Shown here piece after piece: positions 4,638 through 49,325 of a DNA stretch of 64,000 bases (position 1 is the stretch's first letter; every line of letters begins with the position of its first letter). This DNA is from Termitidicoccus mucosus (GTDB lineage Bacteria > Verrucomicrobiota > Verrucomicrobiia > Opitutales > Opitutaceae). The stretch lies in the NCBI RefSeq assembly GCF_038725785.1, contig NZ_CP109796.1:2728001-2792000 (forward strand). Reading direction: 5' to 3'. A model generated the notes under the pieces. It was not told the DNA's origin and ran no database searches. It was given only the letters and a program-made list of their open reading frames with translations. The position numbers and the translations under genes were made by a program.

Positions 4638-6197
4638 TTAACGAAACCACTCGCACACGCGCCCGTCCGCATCGCGCGGCGGCAGCACCATGCGCCGAAA
4701 CCCGACCTCGCAGTGTTGCACGACCGCCTGAAACTTCCGCAGCCGCCGGAACTCATGCGGTTCGATGTGATACTTCTCCTCCTCTGAATACGACATTGTC
4801 CGCTTGCCGGCGGAATACCCATACGTGCGTTTCCGGTATTTCTTCTTGCCGAGCGTGTCGGCGGCGATTTTCGCGGATTCCTCGTCGGCGGCCTTGAACA
4901 TGATGCGGTTCGCCATGTTCGCGATAAAAACCCTGGCCTTTTGCTCGTCGCCAATCGGCGGGATGAGCGACGTGTAACTCTGCGTCGCCGCGACAACCGT
5001 CGCCCTGGCCTCGCGCATCACGTCCACGACGTTGTAATCGCTCGTGCCGTCATGGTTCGCCGTCACGATCTTTTGCGCCTCGTCGGCCCACAATATCAAC
5101 AAATTGTCATTCGCCCGCTCCTTCGAGGTCCGGTCGAAGCGCAGCAGCACATGCGAATAAAACACCAGTTTTAATAATGTGTGTATATAACGCCGCTCCG
5201 TCTTGAAACGTTGCGGAATCGAGACGCAAATCACCTTGCCCCGGTCGATCTCCGCAAACGAAAGCGTCGATTTCTCGGGACAAAACACCCTCGCGATGTC
5301 GGGATGCGTAAAATGCTTCAACCGATTCGCCAGCGTGCCGCGCACGCCGCCCAGTTGATCCTTCGGCTGGCTGGCGATTTGCGTTTCGTAATATTCCATC
5401 AGTTCGCGCGACTCCGGCGTGTTTTTTTCATCCAGCATGCCGATAATGTCCTTCATCCATGCGTCCGATGAGAGCATTTCATAGGCGTGGTTGAGCGTGA
5501 CGGACAACCCGGCGCATGCCAGCGCCTGAAACGCAAAATCCATCTGGATTTCCGCCTGGGTCTTGAAAAACGACTGGTCGCCGTCCTGCCCGAGCGAAGC
5601 GGCGACATCGCACACGTCCTTCGCCTTCGCCGAAAAGGGCAGGCGCGCGTCCTCAAGGTAGTTGAACGTGTGCGGGGGTTCCCAATCCGCAGGCGCGCCG
5701 TCCGGTCGCACTTGCAGCAAAATCAAGTCCTGTTCGCGTCCGAGATGCCTGAACATCTCTGAAAGCGTCTCCCAGTACAGCCCCTTGTCATCGATGCAGA
5801 TGCCACCCCAGCGCGGGCAGTTTTTCGAGACCTGCCAGAGCATGGCATTGATGGCCGAGAGCGTTTTTCCCGAACCCGTCTCGCCCGTCACCAGCCAGCC
5901 CCGGCAGAAGTCGTTCAGCGACCACGAAAACCCGCCCAGCGTCAGAATCGGCTTCACACGCGGGCGACCGCGCGTCGCCATCACACCGCACGCCACCTGC
6001 CAGACGGCAAACACGGCGAACACCGCCGTCATCGCCAGCGCCGCGCCCGGCGACATGCCGGCCCGCCGCGTGAAAAACGCGCAGCCAAGACTCGCGACGG
6101 CGAGAAGAAAACGAAACAGCATAAGTGCAAATGCCGCGCGCAACCTTGCACACAGCCTCGCCATTATGCCCGAAAACACCGCGCCCGGCTTGGACAT
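4638..6197 (-). CDS. Type IV coupling protein (TraD/VirD4/TrwB-like)
   Basis: A 519-residue inner-membrane ATPase that would recruit the relaxase-DNA complex to a conjugative type IV secretion channel. Two hydrophobic segments near the N-terminus (about residues 22-43 and 50-72) fit the membrane anchor of TraD/VirD4 proteins. Walker A is TGETGSGKT (about 104-112) and Walker B is LLILWADEAQK (about 370), followed by a conserved ATQSYTSL sensor segment. This is the only intact gene of the conjugation block; both neighbours on the same strand are frame-broken. No VirB-type channel genes are present in the window, so any function would depend on another element. Confidence 0.85.
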   Translation of the reverse strand: MSKPGAVFSGIMARLCARLRAAFALMLFRFLLAVASLGCAFFTRRAGMSPGAALAMTAVFAVFAVWQVACGVMATRGRPRVKPILTLGGFSWSLNDFCRGWLVTGETGSGKTLSAINAMLWQVSKNCPRWGGICIDDKGLYWETLSEMFRHLGREQDLILLQVRPDGAPADWEPPHTFNYLEDARLPFSAKAKDVCDVAASLGQDGDQSFFKTQAEIQMDFAFQALACAGLSVTLNHAYEMLSSDAWMKDIIGMLDEKNTPESRELMEYYETQIASQPKDQLGGVRGTLANRLKHFTHPDIARVFCPEKSTLSFAEIDRGKVICVSIPQRFKTERRYIHTLLKLVFYSHVLLRFDRTSKERANDNLLILWADEAQKIVTANHDGTSDYNVVDVMREARATVVAATQSYTSLIPPIGDEQKARVFIANMANRIMFKAADEESAKIAADTLGKKKYRKRTYGYSAGKRTMSYSEEEKYHIEPHEFRRLRKFQAVVQHCEVGFRRMVLPPRDADGRVCEWFR

Positions 6198-37959: not shown

Positions 37960-40350
37960 ATGCCTTATTACGCCCATACCGCCAGCGATCCAAATGACCC
38001 GGACAGCCAACTTCCGGAAGGCTCTGGCAAATGGCAATTGCTTCGCGAACATCTTGAGGCCGTCGCCAAGCTCGCCGCCCAGTTTGCCGCCGCCTTCGGC
38101 CTCGCTGATATCGCACGGCTCGCAGGACTGCTTCACGATTTGGGAAAGTACGCCGAGCGCTTTCAAGCCCGCCTTCACGACCCTGCTCACATCCATGGCA
38201 TCAACCATTGGATTTCCGGCGCATTTGCGGCCTACGCCTCCAGCCATCCACTCCTCTCCTTCCTGATAGATGGTCACCACACGGGGCTACCTTCATTCCA
38301 AAATGACGTCGCCGGCATACGCGCCTCGCTGCAGCAATCCCTCAAAAAATTCAATTCACCCGTCACTCGTTCCGCACTCACCGGAGGCTGTCCAGAGTCC
38401 GTTGAGGACCTCCTTAAACACCTCACCAACGATGGCATTACGATTCCGAACATTTCGGCCCAGCCGTTGCCCGCGCTGACCGAGGCTAATCGCGTATTCG
38501 AAACGGCCTTCCGCGCCCGCATGCTTTTCAGTTGCCTGGTGGACGCCGATTTTCTCGACACGGAGCGGCATTTCGATCCCGCCCAAGCCGCCAGGCGGCC
38601 AGCTTTTTCGCACGCTCCGAATCACGACTTCCTCAACGCGCCCCGAGCCCTCGAAATCCTTCTCGCCGAACTCCGCGCAAAACCGGCCGACGGCGAAGTC
38701 AACCGCCTCCGCCGCGAACTCCTCGACAACTGCCTCCAGAAAGCCGCCTGCCCTCCCGGCCTCTTTACTATCACTGCGCCCACCGGCAGCGGCAAAACCC
38801 TCTCCTCGCTCGCGTTCGCGCTCCGGCACATTGAGCTGCACAACAAACCCCTTGCGACCGACGACGCGTGCCGTCTCCGCCGCATCATCGTCGTCATCCC
38901 CTACACCAGCATCATCGAGCAAACCGCCGATGTTTTCCGCAAACTTTTCGGAGCCCAATTTGGACCCGGTTACATCCTTGAGCACCACAGCGCCGTCGCT
39001 CCGCGCGAGCTTGAGAGCAACGCCCCTCAACACGACCGCGATGCCGAGGATGAACGCACACGGCGCGCCCGCCTCGCGCAAGAAAACTGGGACGCCCCGC
39101 TGATCGTCACCACCAGCGTCCGGTTTTTCGAGAGCCTCTTTGCGAGTCGCACCAGCGATTGCCGCAAACTCCACAACATTGCCCGCTCCGTCATTCTCTT
39201 TGATGAAGTCCAAACGCTCCCGCACAACCTCGTCCCCTCGCTCCTTTCCGGCGTCAGTCTCCTGACCGGCGCCCCCTATGGCAGCACGGCGGTCTTCATG
39301 ACCGCGACCCAGCCCGCCTTCGCCTCCGCTAAAAACGCGCTGCCCTTTGGCTGGAACCCCACCCCGATCGAAGCCGATGCCAACGCCCTTTCGGAAACGC
39401 TCCGGCGCACTCGTATTCAGCTTCCCACGACGCCCGAAGCGCCTGCCGTTTCATACACATGGAGCGAACTTGCGGGGGAGCTTCTCAACGCCCCGCACCA
39501 GCAAGCCCTCTGCGTCCTCAACACCACCAAGGATGCCCGCGCCCTGTTTCGTATTCTAAAAAAAACTGCCGCGCCCGGCGCGATTCTCCACCTTTCCTCG
39601 CGCATGTGCCCCGCGCACCGCCGGCAGGTGCTCGCCGAGGTGCGTCGCCGCCTGCATCCGGATAATACCGCAAAACCATCCTGCATCCTTGTCTCCACGC
39701 AGCTCATCGAGGCCGGCGTTGACGTGGATTTCCCCATCGCCTACCGCGCACTCGGCCCGCTCGACTCCATCATCCAAACCGCCGGGCGCTGCAACCGGGA
39801 GGGACGCCGCCCGGGACGCTGCTCCGTCATCGTTTTTCACGCGGTCGAGGGCGGCATCCCGCCAGGCGCCTACGAAACCGCCACTGCCGCCACGCTTGCT
39901 TTTCTCAAGCGATACCCCGATGCGGAAGACCGCCTCCACCTCCCGCAATTCTATGCCGATTATTTTGCCGAACTCTACAAACTCACCGGACGCGATTCCG
40001 CCGCCGCCGATCCTGTTTATGCCGCGTCGGCAAAGCTCGATTTCCCTGCCGCCGACGCGGCTTGCCGTTTGGTTGATGCCAACACTCGCAGTGTCCTCGT
40101 GCAGTGGAAACGCGGCCAGGAAATCATCGAAAAATTGCGCCGGGAAAAACACCTGAGCACGGACGAGTGGCGCGAAACCCAGCACTATTCCGTCAATCTC
40201 TACGAGCACGGCGAATTTCTTGACGCCAAGGCAAAGGGGTATGTCGCCACGGCTCTTGAATCCCAAAATGTCGAAAAATGGTTTTGGGCAGCCAACTACG
40301 ACGAACACCTCGGAGCCTGTCATGCCGAAGGTGAGGATTTCTACTTATGA
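37960..40350 (+). CDS. cas3: CRISPR-associated helicase/nuclease Cas3 (type I-C)
   Basis: A 796-residue effector nuclease recruited by Cascade to unwind and degrade target DNA. The N-terminal HD nuclease domain has LAGLLHDLGKYAERF (His59-Asp60) and DGHHTGLPS. The helicase part has Walker A ITAPTGSGKT (about 271-280), the DEAD-box-like ILFDEVQTLP (about 415), motif III FMTATQPAF, and motif VI IIQTAGRCNREG. Order HD then helicase in one chain is standard. It is the first gene of the cas operon; cas5 starts 62 bp later. The promoter should lie in the AT-rich 37860-37955 stretch shared with the divergent GH112 gene. Confidence 0.96.
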   Translation: MPYYAHTASDPNDPDSQLPEGSGKWQLLREHLEAVAKLAAQFAAAFGLADIARLAGLLHDLGKYAERFQARLHDPAHIHGINHWISGAFAAYASSHPLLSFLIDGHHTGLPSFQNDVAGIRASLQQSLKKFNSPVTRSALTGGCPESVEDLLKHLTNDGITIPNISAQPLPALTEANRVFETAFRARMLFSCLVDADFLDTERHFDPAQAARRPAFSHAPNHDFLNAPRALEILLAELRAKPADGEVNRLRRELLDNCLQKAACPPGLFTITAPTGSGKTLSSLAFALRHIELHNKPLATDDACRLRRIIVVIPYTSIIEQTADVFRKLFGAQFGPGYILEHHSAVAPRELESNAPQHDRDAEDERTRRARLAQENWDAPLIVTTSVRFFESLFASRTSDCRKLHNIARSVILFDEVQTLPHNLVPSLLSGVSLLTGAPYGSTAVFMTATQPAFASAKNALPFGWNPTPIEADANALSETLRRTRIQLPTTPEAPAVSYTWSELAGELLNAPHQQALCVLNTTKDARALFRILKKTAAPGAILHLSSRMCPAHRRQVLAEVRRRLHPDNTAKPSCILVSTQLIEAGVDVDFPIAYRALGPLDSIIQTAGRCNREGRRPGRCSVIVFHAVEGGIPPGAYETATAATLAFLKRYPDAEDRLHLPQFYADYFAELYKLTGRDSAAADPVYAASAKLDFPAADAACRLVDANTRSVLVQWKRGQEIIEKLRREKHLSTDEWRETQHYSVNLYEHGEFLDAKAKGYVATALESQNVEKWFWAANYDEHLGACHAEGEDFYL

Positions 40351-40412: not shown

Positions 40413-41174
40413 ATGCCTATCTACCTCCGCACATGGGGTGACCTCGCCTGCTTTACTCGGCCAGAGATGAAAGTGGAGCGTGTCAGTTACCCGGTCATCA
40501 CGCCCTCCGCAGCCCGCGGGCTCCTTGAAGCCATTCTCTATAAACCCCAATTTCGCTGGCGCATCCATCGCATTGCCGTCCAGAGGCCAATTCGGTTCCT
40601 CGCCTTTCGGCGAAACGAGGTGAAATCCCGCCTTTCCACACGTAACCCGGCTCCGCTCCTCGCCGACGAAGACCGCACCCAGCGCAACACGCTCGCGCTT
40701 CGCGACGTGTCCTATGTGATCGAGGCGTCCATTGAACTTACGGCGCTGGCTGGCCAGCCGCGCCGCGCTCCTCATGCGTCCGATGAACCACAGGGCGACG
40801 ACAACGTGGGAAAATACCTCGGCATGTTCCAGCGCCGTGCCGAGAAAGGCCAGTGCTTTGCCCAGCCGTGCTTCGGTTGTCGTGAATTTCCGGCACACTT
40901 CGAACTCACGGATGCAAGCGCGATGAGCGTTCCGTCCGGGATCAATCCCGACTCGGATCTCGGCCTCATGCTCTACGATGTGTTCGACTTGGATGTGTCG
41001 AAAAACCAACGCCCCGGAAAAATCGAGAAAACCAATCCCCGGATTACCTTTTTCCCGGCTGCGCTCAAAAACGGTGTCGTCACGATTCCATCGTGGAGTG
41101 AAGTTCGCCGTCAGCTCACAGCGGCTACGACAACGGCCACCTCCACCGATTCCCAAAAAGGAGGTGTCGCATGA
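40413..41174 (+). CDS. cas5: Cas5d/Cas5c, pre-crRNA processing subunit
   Basis: A 253-residue Cas5 protein of type I-C. In this subtype it replaces Cas6: it cuts the repeat at the 3' base of the hairpin and stays on the 5' handle. The N-terminus MPIYLRTWGDLACFTRPEMK and YPVITPSAARGLLEAILYKP are characteristic of the Cas5d group. The C-terminus contains GLMLYDVFDLD. The stop overlaps the cas8c start by ATGA (41171-41174). Confidence 0.95.
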   Translation: MPIYLRTWGDLACFTRPEMKVERVSYPVITPSAARGLLEAILYKPQFRWRIHRIAVQRPIRFLAFRRNEVKSRLSTRNPAPLLADEDRTQRNTLALRDVSYVIEASIELTALAGQPRRAPHASDEPQGDDNVGKYLGMFQRRAEKGQCFAQPCFGCREFPAHFELTDASAMSVPSGINPDSDLGLMLYDVFDLDVSKNQRPGKIEKTNPRITFFPAALKNGVVTIPSWSEVRRQLTAATTTATSTDSQKGGVA

Positions 41175-42952
41175 TGCTTCAGGCTCTCATCGCTTATGCG
41201 GAACGCGAGAATCTTGGTGATGCCGATTTCGAAACGGTCGCCGTGCGCTGGCTTATTCCCCTCGGCTCGGATGGAAAGCTTGCCGGCAATCCCATTCCGC
41301 TTTCTGAAGATCCCTCGGCGAAGAAACCACGCCCCAAGCCAATGCTTCGTCCGTTCACTTCCCCCAACGAACTCAATCAAGGCACCAAGTCCCATTTCCT
41401 TTGCGATACGCTTGAGCGGGCTATTTTGCTTCCCGATCCCAAAGCAACGGAGTCCAAAGTCGCAGCTCGCCGCGTCCAGCACGCTTATTTCAAAAGCCTC
41501 CTTTCCGAAGCAGCCGCTGCTTGCGCCGATGACCCTGAAGCTGCTCCGTCCACTGCGGCGTTGCGCGCGATCAAGACCTTTCTCGATGACGAAGACGCTC
41601 TCGCTTCTCTTCGCGAACAATTCAGTAGCCTGAAGGCGAAGCCGACGGAAAACGTTACATTCAAAGTCGGCGATTCCATTATTCTTGAATTTCTGGCTCT
41701 GAAAAAGTTCTGGCGGACGCGCCGTCAGGCTGCGGCCGCTTCCGGCGCCAACAAACGCTCTGAGCGCATTTGCATTGCGACAGGCGAGCTGAGTGAAATT
41801 CTGGATACCACGGAGAAAATCAAGGGAGTCCCCGGCGGATTGGCCACCGGCACCAACCTCATCAGCTTCGATAAGGATGCGTTTTGCTCCTACGGCCTTA
41901 ACCAGGCGCAAAACGCTGCGCTTTCTCCCAATGCCGAGTTGAAAATCCGCTCTGCACTCAATGAGCGTATCGAAAAAAGCCGTGCGCAAGGGCTCGTTTT
42001 CAACGGCACGGTTTATATCCACTGGACCCGGAATGCGCTCAATCAGACCGATCCCATTGATCTGCTCCACACGCCGGACGCCAATGCGATCGCGCAACTT
42101 CTCCTGTCGCCAAAAACGGGACGGCAATACTCCGATCTCGATGCCAACGCCTATTATTGCGCCGGGCTCACCGGAAACGGAGCGCGCATTGTTGTCCGCG
42201 ATTGGATCGAAACCACCGTGCCCGAAGTCGAGCAAAGCATCGCAGCCTGGTTTCGCGATCTCACTTTGGTGAATCCTGACGGCATGGAAACGCGCAACAA
42301 CTTCAAATTTGGCGCGCTTCTTTACGGACTCGTTCGCGACAAACTCGACGAACTCGCCCCGCAAATCCCCGTCCAACTTCTTCATTCCGCGCTCCGCAAT
42401 ACGCCGCTCCCGCAAACGGCTTTGGCAGCCGCGCTTCGTCGTCAGCAGATCGAAGAGGACAAACTCTCTCCTGCCCGTCTCGCCCTCATCAAGGCCTGCC
42501 TGCTTCGTTCAATCACAACCCGAAACCAAAAGGAAAATCACACCATGACAGCCGAACTGAATACCGAATCCCGCGACCCCGCCTATCTCTGCGGGCGTCT
42601 CTTTGCCGTTTTTGACCGGCTCCAGTATCTCGCCTTGGAAGGCGTCAAGGCCGGCGTGGTCGAGCGTTATTACGCCAGCGCCAGCGCCACACCAGCAATG
42701 GTCATGGGTCGCCTTTTCCGCAACGCCCAGTATCATCTCTCGAAGACGGATGGTGGCATCGCGACCAATATCTCCAAGGATTTCGAGGCAATTGCCTCCG
42801 CGCTTGGACACGAATTTCCCGCCGCCCTTGATCTCGAAGGCCAAGGCCGCTTCGCCCTTGGTTATTACCACCAAAAGGCGGAATATCGGCGTATCTCCGC
42901 CGAACGCAAAGAGGCTGCCGCTCAGGCCAAGGCCGCGGCAGAGGCCAAGTAA
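41171..42952 (+). CDS. cas8c: Cas8c (Csd1), large Cascade subunit
   Basis: A 593-residue large subunit of type I-C Cascade that recognises the PAM. The N-terminal [13 protein letters not shown] and the [20 protein letters not shown] stretch (in parts RPFTSPNEL and [11 protein letters not shown]) are typical Csd1. The middle contains [15 protein letters not shown], and the last 135 residues form a helical bundle region. An internal ATG at 42545 with its own ribosome-binding site allows separate synthesis of that C-terminal part (see Cas11c). Start ATG 41171 overlaps cas5. Confidence 0.95.
42545..42952 (+). CDS. cas11c: Probable Cas11c, internal translation product of cas8c
   Basis: An in-frame ATG at codon 459 of cas8c, preceded by AAAAGGAAAA (AAGGA at 42530-42534, 10 nt before the ATG), would make a 135-residue protein beginning [19 protein letters not shown]. 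In studied type I-C systems the small subunit Cas11c is made exactly this way, from an internal start near the 3' end of cas8c, and is needed for a stable Cascade. The product has [16 protein letters not shown] and a Lys/Ala-rich C-terminus, as expected for a helical small subunit. That it is translated here is an inference from the start site and length. Confidence 0.75.
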
Positions 42953-43029: not shown

Positions 43030-43905
43030 ATGAACAACCGCTACGACTTCGTTTATCTCTTCGACTGCAAAGACGGCAATCCCAACGGAGACCCCGATGC
43101 TGCCAACTCCCCGCGCATCGACCCGCAGGACATGCACGGCCTCGTTTCCGATGTCTGTCTGAAACGCAAAATCCGCAACTACGCCCTGCTCGAAAAAGCG
43201 GGCGCCGACGGCTACGACATTTTTGTTCAGCAAGGCTCCGTGCTGAACGACAAGATTGGCGAGGCCCATAAAGCGCTCGGCCACGACATCGATCCGAAAT
43301 CCGAAAAGAAAAAAGCCACCCGCGAGCAGGTTGGCAAAGCCCGCGTCGAGATGTGCCGCCGTTTTTATGACGTGCGCACCTTTGGCGCGGTCATGTCCAC
43401 CGGCCCCAACGCCGGCCAGGTTCGCGGCCCTGTGCAACTCAGCTTTTCGCGCAGCATCGATTCCATCCTTCCGCTCGACCTCAGCGTCACCCGCATGGCT
43501 GTCACCGAGGCAAAGGAAGCCGACGCGCCCAACCAGACCATGGGCCGCAAAAACATCATCCCCTACGGACTCTATCGTTGCCACGGTTTCATCAGCGCCA
43601 ACCTCGCCAACGAGACTGGATTCAGTGATGACGACCTCGAACTCCTCTGGCGCGCCCTCTCGCTCATGTTCGACCACGACCGCTCTGCCAGCCGCGGCAC
43701 AATGGCCCCGCAAAAGCTCATTGTTTTCAAACACGCCAGTCTCCTCGGCAACGCGCCCGCGCACAAGCTCTTCGACCGTGTCCAGGTTTCCCTGAAACCC
43801 GAACTTGCCGCCGCCGGGAAAGCTGCACGGTCCTTCTCCGACTACATCGTGACCATCAATCGCGACAACCTTCCCTCCGGGGTGGAAATCATCGAAAAAC
43901 TCTGA
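43030..43905 (+). CDS. cas7: Cas7c (Csd2), Cascade backbone subunit
   Basis: A 291-residue RAMP-fold backbone protein that polymerises along the crRNA spacer. The N-terminal [20 protein letters not shown] and [20 protein letters not shown] motifs are characteristic of type I-C Cas7, as is [19 protein letters not shown]. It starts 77 bp after cas8c, preceded by a short AT-rich spacer (TCCAATATATAAATACGCC). Length and motif order are normal. Confidence 0.96.
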
Positions 43906-43912
43906 CCTTGCA

Positions 43913-44545
43913 ATGGGCTCATCAGCCCAGATTTCTCTCAGCGCCCTCAACGATTATCTCTACTGTCCGCGACGGGCAGGATTGAAATTCATTGAAGGGC
44001 TGCGCGGTGAAAACGAGCACACCCTACTCGGCGACCAGGCGCACGAGCATGTCGATTTTCCCGGATATGAGCAACGCGCGGGGTGGACTCTGCTCCGTGC
44101 GCTGCCGCTTTATTCCGACCGGCTCGGCCTTTCAGGAAAAGCCGACTTGGTGGAAGTCCGCCATGCACTCGGTGGCGAATCCATTACCGAAATCCGCCCT
44201 GTCGAATACAAGAAGGGACCGAAGCGGCGTTTCGACAACGACGAAGCCCAGCTTTGCGCCCAGGCTTTTTGCCTCGAAGAGATGTTCGGGTTGGGCATCG
44301 AGACCGGCTCTATTTATCATGCGTCCTCGCAAAAACGCCGCGACGTTTGCTTCGACGAACCCTTGCGCATCAAGACACGCGAAACGATCACCGCCCTGCG
44401 GGGGTTGATCGAGGCCGGGGAAATGCCTCCCGCCGAGTTGCGTCCGCAATGCGAGGGTTGTTCCCTGCACGAAATCTGCCTGCCCGAGGCTTCGGTCAAA
44501 CCACCGTTTCGCCATCTCTACGAACCGCGAGACTACGCCTTCTGA
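43913..44545 (+). CDS. cas4: Cas4 exonuclease, spacer acquisition
   Basis: A 210-residue RecB-family nuclease with an iron-sulfur cluster; Cas4 trims prespacers and helps choose those with the right PAM. The first cluster Cys is in LNDYLYCPRRAGLKF, and the other three in PQCEGCSLHEICLPE near the C-terminus. Nuclease motifs are LSGKADLVEV (Asp), RPVEYKKGPK (Glu-x-Lys) and DEAQLCAQAFCLEE (Gln motif). It lies 7 bp after cas7 and 48 bp before cas1, the usual I-C order. Confidence 0.95.
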   Translation: MGSSAQISLSALNDYLYCPRRAGLKFIEGLRGENEHTLLGDQAHEHVDFPGYEQRAGWTLLRALPLYSDRLGLSGKADLVEVRHALGGESITEIRPVEYKKGPKRRFDNDEAQLCAQAFCLEEMFGLGIETGSIYHASSQKRRDVCFDEPLRIKTRETITALRGLIEAGEMPPAELRPQCEGCSLHEICLPEASVKPPFRHLYEPRDYAF

Positions 44546-44593: not shown

Positions 44594-45628
44594 TTGTCCC
44601 AGCTCCTCCAAAACACCCTCTATCTCCTCACGCCCAAGCTCTCCGTTTATCGGGATGGACTTGCGCTCCGCATCGAGCAGGACCGCCAGCTCAAGCTCTC
44701 GCTTCCCATCCACAATTGCGAATCGCTGCTCGTGTTCGGCCCCGACATATATGTGTCGCCGGCCGCGATGCGGCTTTGCTGGGAAAACGGAGCCAGCGTT
44801 TGTTATTTCACCGAATGGGGGCGCCTTGAGGCCCGCGTTGAAGGCATCCCGCAAGGATCGGTCCACCTCCGGCGTATCCAGCACGCCGCGGCCTCCGACC
44901 TGGTTCGCACGGCGGAAATCGCGCGGTCGTTTATCGCGGGAAAAATCCACAATACCCGCTGGCTCCTCAACCGCAGCGCGCGCGATGCCGCCGAAACCGC
45001 GGATGCCGGCGCCCTGCGTTCCGTATCCGACATTTTGATACGTCTGCTGCGGCAACTCCCGGCGACGGCAGACACGGATGCCGCACGCGGGATCGAAGGG
45101 CAGGCTGCGGCGCTCCACTTCGAGGTGTTCGGGAAACACCTGCGCCCCCAAGTCAGGCAGAAATTTCCGGTGGACGGACGGAACCGCCGTCCGCCGCGCG
45201 ATACGGTGAATTGCGTGCTGTCGTTTCTTTATGCGTTGCTGCGCCATGATTGTGTCTCGGCGCTGACTGCGACGGGACTCGATCCATTCGTCGGCTATTT
45301 GCATGCGGATCGCTCTGGCCGTGAATCACTGGCGCTCGACCTGATGGAGGAATTTCGTCCCTGGGCGGAGCGGCAGGCCATCACGCTGTTGAATCGAGGC
45401 GAACTGGGCTCCAAGGATTTTGCCTTTCGCGAAGGCGGGGCCGTGGAACTCACCGAGGCGGCGAGGAAAACGCTGGTCGGCACCTACCAGACCCGCAAAC
45501 GCGAGGAAACGGCACATCCGCTGTTCAAGGAAAAAGTGCGCTATGGACAGTTGCCTTTTATCCAAGCGCGCGTGTTGGCCCGGGCCTTGCGGGAAAAAAC
45601 CGAATATATTCCCCACCTGTTTACCTGA
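44594..45628 (+). CDS. cas1: Cas1 integrase
   Basis: A 344-residue metal-dependent integrase that inserts new spacers. Conserved acidic and His residues are seen in RGIEGQAAALHFEVFG (Glu), GLDPFVGYLHADRSGRESLA (His) and LDLMEEFRPWAERQ (Asp/Glu). The N-terminal beta-domain starts LLQNTLYLLTPKLSVYRDGLALRIE (in parts). The annotated start is TTG at 44594; no nearer ATG precedes the conserved N-terminus, so a TTG start is likely. Confidence 0.95.
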   Translation: MSQLLQNTLYLLTPKLSVYRDGLALRIEQDRQLKLSLPIHNCESLLVFGPDIYVSPAAMRLCWENGASVCYFTEWGRLEARVEGIPQGSVHLRRIQHAAASDLVRTAEIARSFIAGKIHNTRWLLNRSARDAAETADAGALRSVSDILIRLLRQLPATADTDAARGIEGQAAALHFEVFGKHLRPQVRQKFPVDGRNRRPPRDTVNCVLSFLYALLRHDCVSALTATGLDPFVGYLHADRSGRESLALDLMEEFRPWAERQAITLLNRGELGSKDFAFREGGAVELTEAARKTLVGTYQTRKREETAHPLFKEKVRYGQLPFIQARVLARALREKTEYIPHLFT

Positions 45629-45664: not shown

Positions 45665-45961
45665 ATGTTTTTGCTCATCACGTATGATGTTTCCATGACC
45701 GACGAGAAGGCGGGCGCGCGACGTTTGAGGCGCGTGGCCAAGGCGTGCACCTCTTACGGGACGCGTGTGCAAAAATCGGTCTTCGAGATGCAGCTTGGCC
45801 AGACAGAGTGGGTCGCATTGCGGGCTCGGCTGCTGGACGAAATCGATCCCGCGCGGGATTCGTTGCGGGTGTATTTTATCGACCAGACGAGCAAAACCCG
45901 CATAGAGCATTTTGGTGCCGGGCGACCGGCGAATCTGGTCGAGGACACGCTGGCATTGTGA
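45665..45961 (+). CDS. cas2: Cas2, spacer acquisition
   Basis: A 98-residue ferredoxin-fold protein forming the Cas1-Cas2 integration complex. The N-terminal MFLLITYDVSMTDEKAG carries the conserved Asp after the first strand, and GTRVQKSVFEMQL and LRVYFIDQTS complete the family pattern. It is the last cas gene; its stop at 45961 is followed by the leader. Confidence 0.96.
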   Translation: MFLLITYDVSMTDEKAGARRLRRVAKACTSYGTRVQKSVFEMQLGQTEWVALRARLLDEIDPARDSLRVYFIDQTSKTRIEHFGAGRPANLVEDTLAL

Positions 45962-46168
45962 CCGCGGCGAAAGGGGCGAGGCGATATGGCGTGCGAAAGC
46001 AATGCCTCCCCGGATCACGCACACGTTCGCAAGGATTGTAACTTGATAAATTTCAGCCAAGTAAGACGTATGGAAGACAAGATGCGGTCATTGTCTTTTT
46101 GCTTCTTGGCAAGATTCGCAGAACCCACCAAGTAACTTCTTGGCATATAGAGGCAAAATCTATGCGCC
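45962..46168 (+). promoter_or_regulatory. CRISPR leader
   Basis: The 207 bp between cas2 and the first repeat. The first third is GC-rich; the part from about 46035 is AT-rich with direct repeats (AACTTCTTGGCATA and CTTCTTGGCAAG). Repeat orientation (GAAAC end pointing away from cas2) and the degenerate repeat at the far end show that transcription and spacer addition start here. Confidence 0.8.
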
Positions 46169-49100
46169 GTCACTCCGAACTTCGGTTCGGAGTGCGGATT
46201 GAAACGAGAAAGACGCGGCAGTCGATGCGTGGATAACGAGTCACTCCGAACTTCGGTTCGGAGTGCGGATTGAAACTATATATGTCAAGTATAGGAAGCG
46301 GCCCACAGAAGTCACTCCGAACTTCGGTTCGGAGTGCGGATTGAAACCGGCGCTGGGCTGCAAATATGTCGAATACCGCTGGTCACTCCGAACTTCGGTT
46401 CGGAGTGCGGATTGAAACTCAGAACTCAAAGCTCGTCGGATCAAATCGAGAGTCACTCCGAACTTCGGTTCGGAGTGCGGATTGAAACATTGATGTTACC
46501 TACGCGCCGCAGTGGCTCGATGGGTCACTCCGAACTTCGGTTCGGAGTGCGGATTGAAACACATACATACACGAAGACGGGGTGACGGAAGACACGTCAC
46601 TCCGAACTTCGGTTCGGAGTGCGGATTGAAACAATACCGCCATCGAGCCACTGCGGCGCGTAGGTAGTCACTCCGAACTTCGGTTCGGAGTGCGGATTGA
46701 AACACAAGGGCGGGCTCTTTCTTATGCCGCTCCTCTGTGTCACTCCGAACTTCGGTTCGGAGTGCGGATTGAAACTCTACGAAGTTTACTTACCGTCTCC
46801 TTCCTCGGGGGTCACTCCGAACTTCGGTTCGGAGTGCGGATTGAAACTCTGGTCTTGCTGCGAATACGGTCACCAAGTCTTGTCACTCCGAACTTCGGTT
46901 CGGAGTGCGGATTGAAACTTCGACCTCATTACCACCTTATCATTTTCGGATGTCACTCCGAACTTCGGTTCGGAGTGCGGATTGAAACATGTATACGAAA
47001 AAGAAACTAGACCAATCCCTCGTCACTCCGAACTTCGGTTCGGAGTGCGGATTGAAACCCCGTCACCGAAACCCTTCCCCTCGATACCATTGTCACTCCG
47101 AACTTCGGTTCGGAGTGCGGATTGAAACATGTATACGAAAAAGAAACTAGACCAATCCCTCCCCGTCACTCCGAACTTCGGTTCGGAGTGCGGATTGAAA
47201 CCATCCCTGCACTCGCTATCGGTCTCGGTTCCGCGTCACTCCGAACTTCGGTTCGGAGTGCGGATTGAAACTCCGGTGTCACTTCCTCTGCTCTCTCGGT
47301 TCAGCGTCACTCCGAACTTCGGTTCGGAGTGCGGATTGAAACTCCGGTGTCACTTCCTCTGCTCTCTCGGTTCAGCGTCACTCCGAACTTCGGTTCGGAG
47401 TGCGGATTGAAACGTATCACTTATTCGCTTATCGAAGCAATGGTTGGTCACTCCGAACTTCGGTTCGGAGTGCGGATTGAAACTGGCGTTATCTTAACGC
47501 CCTCGGAGAGCCCAAACTGTCACTCCGAACTTCGGTTCGGAGTGCGGATTGAAACTTGAATTCTGAGACTGCTAAAGAGTCCCTGATTGTGTCACTCCGA
47601 ACTTCGGTTCGGAGTGCGGATTGAAACCGGCCCCTTCTGAGGCCAAGGCAAACAAGAGGTGTCACTCCGAACTTCGGTTCGGAGTGCGGATTGAAACGAC
47701 CAGGTCGGCGCTGGTGGTATGATATCCTCTGTCACTCCGAACTTCGGTTCGGAGTGCGGATTGAAACCGGCTGAAGGTCAGCAGCGGGTCGAGGTAGCTC
47801 ATGTCACTCCGAACTTCGGTTCGGAGTGCGGATTGAAACTTGAAGTCGCTTCATGTAGAAGCGTGGGATGGGGTCACTCCGAACTTCGGTTCGGAGTGCG
47901 GATTGAAACGTGCAGTTGCAGCGGTTGATGGAGCGTGATGCTCGGTCACTCCGAACTTCGGTTCGGAGTGCGGATTGAAACTCCACCCTTGATGGATATA
48001 TCCTCACTGGGTCGGGTCACTCCGAACTTCGGTTCGGAGTGCGGATTGAAACTATCCCTGCACTTGCTATAGGTTTGGGTTCTGCGAGTCACTCCGAACT
48101 TCGGTTCGGAGTGCGGATTGAAACTTGAAGTGTAAGAGTGTCTCCGGGGAGCACCTCATGTCACTCCGAACTTCGGTTCGGAGTGCGGATTGAAACATGC
48201 GCTGTGTTCACGAGGCTTCCCTTCATGACTGTCACTCCGAACTTCGGTTCGGAGTGCGGATTGAAACACCTCTGCTTTCAATGCTTCGGAGGCCGCCCGT
48301 TGTCACTCCGAACTTCGGTTCGGAGTGCGGATTGAAACAAGCGACGTGAATGGGCTATGCGTTGTGTCCATGGTCACTCCGAACTTCGGTTCGGAGTGCG
48401 GATTGAAACGTTCATTGACGTCGCCTCTATCCCTGACTTCCAGGTCACTCCGAACTTCGGTTCGGAGTGCGGATTGAAACATAGGTTTAGGCTCTGCGAT
48501 TGCGACATCTGCGTGTCACTCCGAACTTCGGTTCGGAGTGCGGATTGAAACGCATCGATAAATGTGCGAGTGATACGATGGACGTGTCACTCCGAACTTC
48601 GGTTCGGAGTGCGGATTGAAACCATCCCACGCTTCTACATGAAGCGCCTTGAAAAGTCACTCCGAACTTCGGTTCGGAGTGCGGATTGAAACATTTATTG
48701 AGCGCGCTCACCTTGCGCGTGAGCGAGGGTCACTCCGAACTTCGGTTCGGAGTGCGGATTGAAACCAGAAGCTCGTGCTGATGCAGGCCAACATCATGCG
48801 GTCACTCCGAACTTCGGTTCGGAGTGCGGATTGAAACTTTCGGCACAAGATGGAACCAATCCTGCGGATCGGTCACTCCGAACTTCGGTTCGGAGTGCGG
48901 ATTGAAACCTTCTAAAAACGATCGCGCCGGGTGGTGCATACCCGTCACTCCGAACTTCGGTTCGGAGTGCGGATTGAAACCACAAGGTCACGGGCGGCAC
49001 TGTGCGCCCCCGCGTCACTCCGAACTTCGGTTCGGAGTGCGGATTGAAACTCGGAGGAGTTCGAGGCCAGCATCGAGCGCGACGGGTCACTCCGAACTTC

Positions 49101-49325
49101 GGTTCGGAGTGCGGATTGAAACCAATAGAGCACAATCAGAATGCACGAACAGCGCGGTCACTCCGAACTTCGGTTCGGAGTGCGGATTGAAACAGGCGGA
49201 GCGGTATGGATTTACGCAATCCCCGGCGCGTCACTCCGAACTTCGGTTCGGAGTGCGGATTGAAACATAGAGGGCGCGCTCGTGCCAATCGGCCTGCCGG
49301 TCACTCCGAACTTCGGTTCGGAGTG
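46169..49325 (+). CRISPR. Type I-C CRISPR array, 44 full repeats + 1 truncated, 44 spacers
   Basis: A 37-nt repeat, beginning GTCACTCCGAACTTCGG and ending GGAGTGCGGATTGAAAC, recurs from 46169 with no variation that I can see. Spacers are 33-36 nt. The repeat holds a 10-bp stem CACTCCGAAC / GTTCGGAGTG closed by a TTCG tetraloop; after the stem are exactly 11 nt (CGGATTGAAAC), the 5' handle expected of Cas5d cleavage. The last repeat (49300-49325) stops at the end of the stem and lacks the handle. Spacers 16 and 17 (47272-47305, 47343-47376) are identical. Spacers 12 and 14 share their 5' ends but differ in length. Several spacers match one another as overlapping or synonymous variants. Short open frames across the array are artefacts. 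Confidence 0.98.

Follow-up and report, generated by a model that had tools for sequence, protein, structure and literature searches.

Type I-C loci (clustered regularly interspaced short palindromic repeats, CRISPR, with their Cas genes) use TTC as the protospacer-adjacent motif (PAM), in Akkermansia as well (PMC8278651). CRISPR spacers have given hosts for about 20% of 4,077 microvirus genomes, in 17 phyla (PMC9239249); the string 'Verrucomicrob' is absent from the main text of that paper, its 17-phylum host table being outside that scope. Other predicted microvirus hosts are Bacteroides, Firmicutes and Proteobacteria (PMC8530359). Gokushoviruses occur worldwide in metagenomes and their host range is little known (PMC7062461), and Verrucomicrobia have been named as potential hosts on abundance alone (PMC4406084). 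No microvirus of this bacterial group was found in the literature searched, judged mostly by titles. Here we describe a CRISPR array in a 64,000-nucleotide stretch (the window) of Termitidicoccus mucosus, family Opitutaceae (contig NZ_CP109796.1, positions 2,728,001 to 2,792,000). Judged from sequence comparison, the array very probably belongs to a type I-C locus of a Verrucomicrobiia lineage that has been repeatedly infected by gokushovirus-like microviruses. Two signs, the immune record kept in the spacers and a microvirus genome integrated at a dif site in a relative, point to one bacterial family as host. Spacers against microviruses are already known; the host group is the new part, for which we found no printed precedent.

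The first-pass annotation had proposed that spacers 11, 29 and 31 encode signature motifs of the microvirus replication protein VP4. Translation of the array placed the three motifs exactly where they had been reported. The spacers with a firm or probable microvirus protein are listed below, with window positions and, in bits, profile scores.

46348..46381, + strand, spacer 3: RRWAANMSNTA, probable VP2 (pilot protein), borderline
46489..46523, + strand, spacer 5: IDVTYAPQWLD, probable VP1
46633..46666, - strand, spacer 7: probable VP1, on the opposite strand to spacer 5
46919..46951, + strand, spacer 11: RPHYHLIIFG in frame +2, HUH motif of VP4, 31.7 bits
47628..47660, - strand, spacer 21: TSCLPWPQKGP, VP1, 34.5 bits
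47840..47872, - strand, spacer 24: PIPRFYMKRLQ, VP4, on the opposite strand of spacer 35
47910..47944, + strand, spacer 25: VQLQRLMERDA, VP1, 22.9 bits
48125..48159, - strand, spacer 28: EVLPGDTLTLQ, VP1, 22.1 bits
48197..48230, + strand, spacer 29: MRCVHEASLHD in frame +0, VP4, 33.2 bits
48339..48372, + strand, spacer 31: KRREWAMRCVH in frame +0, VP4, 30.9 bits
48410..48443, + strand, spacer 32: FIDVASIPDFQ, VP3 (internal scaffold), 22.0 bits
48623..48655, + strand, spacer 35: IPRFYMKRLE, C-terminal part of VP4, 18.1 bits

By their translations, at least nine of the 44 spacers (11, 21, 24, 25, 28, 29, 31, 32 and 35) can be assigned firmly to microviruses, in VP1, VP3 and VP4, and with spacers 3, 5 and 7 the number probably rises to 12 of 44. 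The proposed microvirus source held, as did VP4 as a target. VP4 is, however, only one part of the picture: VP1 is struck about as often, and spacers equally strong, for example spacer 21 (47628-47660), lie beyond the three first reported.

Position-specific scoring matrices for VP1 to VP4 were built from IMG/VR contigs fetched with back-translated WAMRCVHEA (n = 72) and RPHYHLIIFG (n = 28); VP4 was present in 100/100 and VP1 in 99/100 of them. The 44 spacers were scored beside 527 spacers from 23 related I-C loci and 264 shuffles of the window's own spacers. Spacers 21, 29, 11, 31, 25, 28, 32 and 35 reached 18.1 to 34.5 bits, while the top control stood at 16.3 and the top shuffle at 16.1; with the control maximum as threshold, 8/44 against 0/527 gives p = 6.6e-10 (Fisher). 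The VP4 signature of the three motifs was borne out as exceeding chance (31.7, 33.2 and 30.9 bits for spacers 11, 29 and 31), although these three scores are favoured, as the profile contigs were fetched by their motifs. Spacers 21, 25, 28, 32 and 35 played no part in the fetching. The control spacers came from a simple finder: locus L173 contributes 200 strings from two overlapping array calls, some of them perhaps one spacer read in shifted register, and the strings of loci L128, L163 and L172 contain repeat ends, the repeat having been taken too short there. Fourteen spacers of genome G088, from the genus that holds the integrated microvirus described below, scored at most 12.0 bits.

At the DNA level, the whole array matched 40 of 50,697 phage records by blastn (E up to 10), and 33 of these were microvirus records, which include duplicates (e.g. 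KM589511/NC_027645) and are not independent viruses. Spacer 21 matched 21 of the 33, spacer 11 six, spacer 25 four, and spacers 28 and 31 one each, in genes for the capsid (21, 25, 28), the replication protein (11) and VP4 (31). Spacer 21, which accounts for 21 of all 40 matched records, differs from L071 and L178 at 3 of 33 nt, and its reverse-strand peptide TSCLPWPQKGP is identical to capsid sequence of several microviruses. Among 124 microvirus genomes, spacer 11 has its closest DNA match at 5 mismatches; spacer 28 has 5 to L182, and spacer 29 has 6 to L018 with an identical peptide. The remaining phage records were six Mycobacterium phages, through a 22-nt match to spacer 44, and one Pseudomonas phage (spacer 25, E 3). 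No single E-value is strong, the lowest being 6e-3 for the record of Blackfly microvirus SF02. For two relatives, the control array matched 24 phage records in one and 6 in the other, with zero microviruses. The third control array (L173) matched 112, whose names are known for part only, so that it is not claimed as microvirus-free; among the L173 matches listed (best 15 of 112), 4 are labelled just 'Bacteriophage'.

We give next to no credence to the explanation that a six-frame reading of 44 spacers simply yields motif-like peptides by chance. Each spacer does hold only 10-12 codons, the lowest E-value is modest, and single-sequence BLOSUM scores of at least 43, found in 7/44 window spacers, also occur in 3/527 controls (at L169, L125 and L121; one at 52). 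However, none of the eight spacers is equalled in profile score by a control (0/527) or a shuffle (0/264), the matches are concentrated in one phage family and in frame with its genes, and overlapping spacers differ by synonymous changes.

RPHYHLIIFG is a motif of the widespread HUH endonuclease class, and the VP4 of the integrated microvirus (contig L192) has a match to REP_ORF2-G2P, a Pfam family of general replication proteins; both would suit a source in some other HUH replicon, such as a rolling-circle plasmid or a filamentous phage. Such a source is nevertheless highly improbable, given that spacers 21, 25 and 28 lie in the capsid and 32 in the scaffold, and that the contigs fetched by pattern from IMG/VR nearly all pair VP4 with VP1. 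The plasmid search found nothing on the capsid or scaffold spacers: 72,556 plasmid records gave five matches (E 0.3-3), none over a microvirus spacer. The contrary outcome named in the first-pass annotation, strong matches to plasmids or double-stranded DNA phages, was looked for in these phage and plasmid records; plasmids gave none on the microvirus spacers, and tailed phages only the one weak match of spacer 25.

Several spacers needed closer weighing. Spacer 24 alone scores 15.7 bits, equalled by 2/527 controls, and shares 29/31 nt with spacer 35. Spacer 3 also has 15.7 bits, equalled by 2/527 control spacers, and scores 38 against REWQERMSNTA, where shuffles have a 95th percentile of 34 and a maximum of 39. 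Spacers 5 and 7 are singly not significant in profile scoring against controls and shuffles; they overlap by 27 identical nt on opposite strands, and their joint 14-mer IDVTYAPQWLDGGI scores 46 against LDVTYRPEFLGGGS of the L058 VP1 (maximum of 200 shuffles, 44). The IMG/VR pattern LDVTY..P retrieved L058 only, and the patterns VQLQRLMERDA and IPALAIGLGxA matched no contig there. Spacer 6 exceeds the controls by 0.1 as VP4 (16.4 bits), but its score of 32 lies below its shuffle maximum of 39 and we do not claim it. A 10.9-kb contig (L190) fetched from IMG/VR with the pattern RxWAx..MSNTA was set aside as a chance match, its open reading frames looking tailed-phage-like by inspection without a family search. 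Spacers 16 and 17 seemed close (10 mismatches), yet no peptide exceeded their own shuffles. Three further spacers form a group of their own:

47202..47234, + strand, spacer 15: IPALAIGLGS, from a coding target seen in three variants
48053-48087, spacer 27, and 48481-48514, spacer 33: silent variants of the spacer 15 coding site IPALAIGLGSAIATSA

This site could not be placed in any microvirus protein. As a VP2 N-terminus it is unproven, its 16-mer scoring 29, under the shuffle mean of 32.7.

The strands of the firm spacers bear on the form of the phage genome that was sampled. Spacers 11, 25, 29, 31, 32 and 35 carry the coding strand, and 21, 24 and 28 its complement. In microviruses the packaged strand is the coding strand. 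With all genes in one direction, as described in PMC9239249, the complement would be present only in the double-stranded form. Because both strands are represented among the spacers, the double-stranded replicative form is supported, though not proved, as the origin of the spacers and as the object of interference; the annotation's suggestion that this form is the target thus gains indirect backing. Overlapping spacers also differ in a telling way. Spacers 29 and 31 overlap over MRCVH with three differences, all synonymous, and in-frame differences of 15/27 and 27/33 are synonymous only, while 24 and 35 show one synonymous and one Gln/Glu change. Silent differences of this kind are expected of real genes under selection, and the pairs 29/31, 15/27 and 27/33 indicate that more than one phage genotype was sampled. 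Spacers that recur at the same site, on both strands and from diverged genotypes form the pattern that primed adaptation to mutated returning phages would give.

The second sign comes from a relative. A search for the capsid family PF02305 in 252 family genomes of 49 genera gave one match, in G089:C125 (contig L192, 14.7 kb), from a genus other than the window's. The unit it revealed is:

L192 228-4769: microvirus prophage, with VP5, VP3, VP1, VP2 and VP4 consecutive and in one direction

VP1 matches PF02305 with 538.6 bits, and the VP2, VP3, VP4 and VP5 families were matched too. The boundaries are GACATAATATTCATTGTGCG at 228 and GACATACTATTCATTGTGCG at 4750, 20-nt repeats 4,522 bp apart and alike at 19/20 positions. 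With up to 2 mismatches, this dif-like motif occurs in 11 family genomes once in each of ten, Termitidicoccus mucosus included, and twice in G089; a reversed control of the motif had no occurrence in the same 11 genomes. The single site of the T. mucosus genome (G000:C1:780397-780416, in L217) is no more than about 2 kb from a switch in GC-skew sign (19 kb viewed), as dif might show. On the right flank of the prophage, four of six genes are collinear with the dif flank of the congener G087 (69-82% protein identity); the other two would fall outside the G087 stretch compared. The left flank, 227 bp only, has no match except the motif. GC content is 0.48 inside the prophage and 0.61 in the flank, and the rest of L192 holds host genes, one weakly like Ribonuc_L-PSP and others of the DUF1549/DUF1553 and DUF1501 families. 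By its gene families and boundaries, this unit is, in this assembly, a complete microvirus, putatively gokushovirus-like, at a dif-like site of a verrucomicrobial chromosome, the placement at dif following from the dif-like repeats and the collinear right flank in a congener. Its capsid has 53% identity to the closest IMG/VR relative found. Arrays that are short and irregular, with window-like repeats, lie in this same genome, G089 (L218 6630-6940 and L219 6890-7110), which gave no Cas8c match.

The prophage is close in sequence to some of the spacers. Among the 124 microvirus genomes it leads on peptide score, with a margin of one point in each case, for spacer 25 (IQLQRLLERDA) and spacer 28 (EVLPGDTMNLQ), it is the nearest DNA match of spacer 31 (6 mismatches, the next having 7), and it ranks second for spacer 32. 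In the VP1 tree it is sister to Blackfly microvirus SF02 (L178), with support of 0.886 and long branches; the VP4 tree places it weakly elsewhere and does not repeat this grouping. The L192 prophage is not itself the target of the spacers. A complete dif-integrated prophage in the family, together with the continual excision and re-integration of gokushovirus prophages in Escherichia (PMC7062461), would fit spacers taken from integrated prophages or excised circles in lysogens, not from lytic infection. We regard this source as somewhat unlikely: the T. mucosus genome carries a single dif-like site and gave no match to the capsid, and either route would leave the same spacers, so that the two are indistinguishable here.

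The array follows a cas operon on the same strand, with the features below.

37960..40350, + strand: cas3 (HD nuclease-helicase), NCBIfam cas3_core and cas3_HD, both over cut-off
40413..41174, + strand: cas5c, TIGR01876, 157.8 bits (cut-off 85)
41171..42952, + strand: cas8c, TIGR01863, 328.1 bits (cut-off 218.65)
43030..43905, + strand: cas7c, TIGR02589, 366.5 bits (cut-off 182.25)
43913..44545, + strand: cas4, TIGR00372, 108.5 bits (cut-off 65)
44594..45628, + strand: cas1c, TIGR03640, 398.7 bits (cut-off 385)
45665..45961, + strand: cas2, TIGR01573, 57.9 bits (cut-off 24.5)
45962..46168, + strand: presumed leader, inferred from the gap between cas2 and the first repeat
46169..49325 (end approximate), + strand: CRISPR array, 44 repeats and a partial 45th, 44 spacers

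The order Cas3-Cas5c-Cas8c-Cas7c-Cas4-Cas1c-Cas2 is a full type I-C gene set, and by these family matches the locus is a complete type I-C CRISPR-Cas system for which interference is predicted. From 46169 the array has 44 identical 37-nt repeats, followed by a truncated one at 49300, and 44 spacers of 33-36 nt each. A repeat-spacer-repeat query of the T. mucosus genome (7.92 Mb; contig of 7.82 Mb) returned 44/44 matches inside the array. Two spacer pairs repeat each other within it: 12 (46989-47021) and 14 (47129-47164) have the same sequence, with three extra terminal bases in 14, and the adjacent 16 (47272-47305) and 17 (47343-47376) are identical.

CRISPR loci are often mobile, and the array could have been acquired horizontally, the microviruses then infecting the donor bacterium and not the present lineage. 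In line with this, Cas8c is matched in 33/252 family genomes, the T. mucosus genome counted, and two of the 20 named loci with Cas8c relatives in the genome collection belong to other groups: Candidatus Hydrogenedentota, with a fragment 77% identical over 124 residues, and Nitrospinae, at 31%. On the other hand, 15 of the 20 are verrucomicrobial and three are named just 'bacterium', a same-family genome carries the dif-integrated microvirus close to some spacers, and the firm spacers span array positions 11 to 35, so that acquisition is spread through the history of the array. We consider such a transfer quite improbable.

Repeated infection of this lineage by gokushovirus-like microviruses has to be weighed against several observations. 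No assignment was obtained for 32/44 spacers, and some of the control spacers reach high single-sequence scores, as described above. An exact microvirus protospacer, or one with 0-2 mismatches, was not found in the collections searched, the best having 3/33; the firm spacers other than 21 stand at 5 to more than 9 mismatches. From the lack of an exact protospacer it follows that the true target phages are absent from these collections. The prophage is unremarkable for spacers 11, 21, 29 and 35 and is present in 1/252 genomes only, in an assembly (G089) that is 65% complete and in 490 contigs. By the PF02305 search the T. mucosus genome has no microvirus capsid match, nor was any found in 372 sampled genomes of the order or 387 of the phylum (family members included; control genomes silent). 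In four family relatives, contigs carry near-matches of spacer 40, with 3 mismatches, and of spacer 44, with 3, 4 and 5 (L224 4298, L225 4400, L226 4327 and L227 4249), and these two spacers resemble genes there. Two of the genes have no Pfam or PHROG match; perhaps they are of prophage origin.

The sequence context of the targets belongs to the same side of the balance. Across 12 spacers there was no PAM consensus, in a count that included the L190 contig, later excluded. Sites homologous to spacer 25 are preceded by GCN in 66/96 cases. In 50 VP4s not fetched by motif, Ala or Ser stands before the spacer 29 site in 46 and Phe in none, and IMG/VR holds no F-MRCVHEA contig, the pattern that TTC would give at spacer 29. 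Before the spacer 33 sequence, spacers 15 and 27 show GCT, not TTC; likewise spacer 31 itself has GCT at the position preceding the spacer 29 sequence. Upstream of the near-matches, the bases are GCG for spacer 40 and GCC, GCC and ACC for spacer 44. At spacer 5, TTC precedes 16/31 of the homologous sites. The expectation of VP4 protospacers with a 5'-TTC PAM found no support, with no exact protospacer and Phe in 0/50 before the spacer 29 site. The non-TTC context at spacer 29 may reflect an unusual PAM, acquisition at the wrong site or misleading homologues.

In the mechanism that we propose for this locus, Cas1, Cas2 and Cas4 would capture fragments of the double-stranded replicative form that arises after infection, or of an integrated copy. 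The CRISPR RNAs would then direct Cascade-c and Cas3 onto the replicative form, and the phage would be destroyed ahead of the packaging of its single-stranded genome. A wider version is doubtful, and we offer it as speculation. In it, a temperate, dif-integrating gokushovirus-like lineage would be a regular parasite of the family, and the I-C system would keep up by acquiring spacers again and again, perhaps through priming, from a small number of conserved sites in capsid and replicase, under a non-TTC PAM (GCN at the homologues of spacers 25, 29 and 33 and in most near-matches of 40 and 44). The locus lends itself naturally to the question of how a Cascade that targets double-stranded DNA protects against a phage packaged as single-stranded DNA. 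In addition, targets that are weak at the DNA level are recovered when translated spacers are compared with family profiles and related arrays supply the control spacers.

Compared with the type I-C systems described in Akkermansia (PMC8278651), the window locus has the same Cas set and anti-phage spacers. While the Akkermansia loci are split into two directions, the window operon runs all in one; its recognisable targets are single-stranded DNA phages, and a TTC context fits the homologues of spacer 5 but not those of 25, 29 or 33. The repeat end ATTGAAAC is common to the window array and most related I-C arrays. In relation to the CRISPR-based host assignments of PMC9239249, the matches here are at the protein level and come with control spacers, in a verrucomicrobial host. 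The integrated genome in the family relative is similar to the enterogokushoviruses of Escherichia, microviruses of 4.3-4.7 kb that integrate at dif, and shares with them one conserved host-like dif copy and one that is more variable (PMC7062461). It is also of the same kind as the microvirus proviruses of Bacteroidetes (PMC3091885), but its host belongs to the class Verrucomicrobiia.

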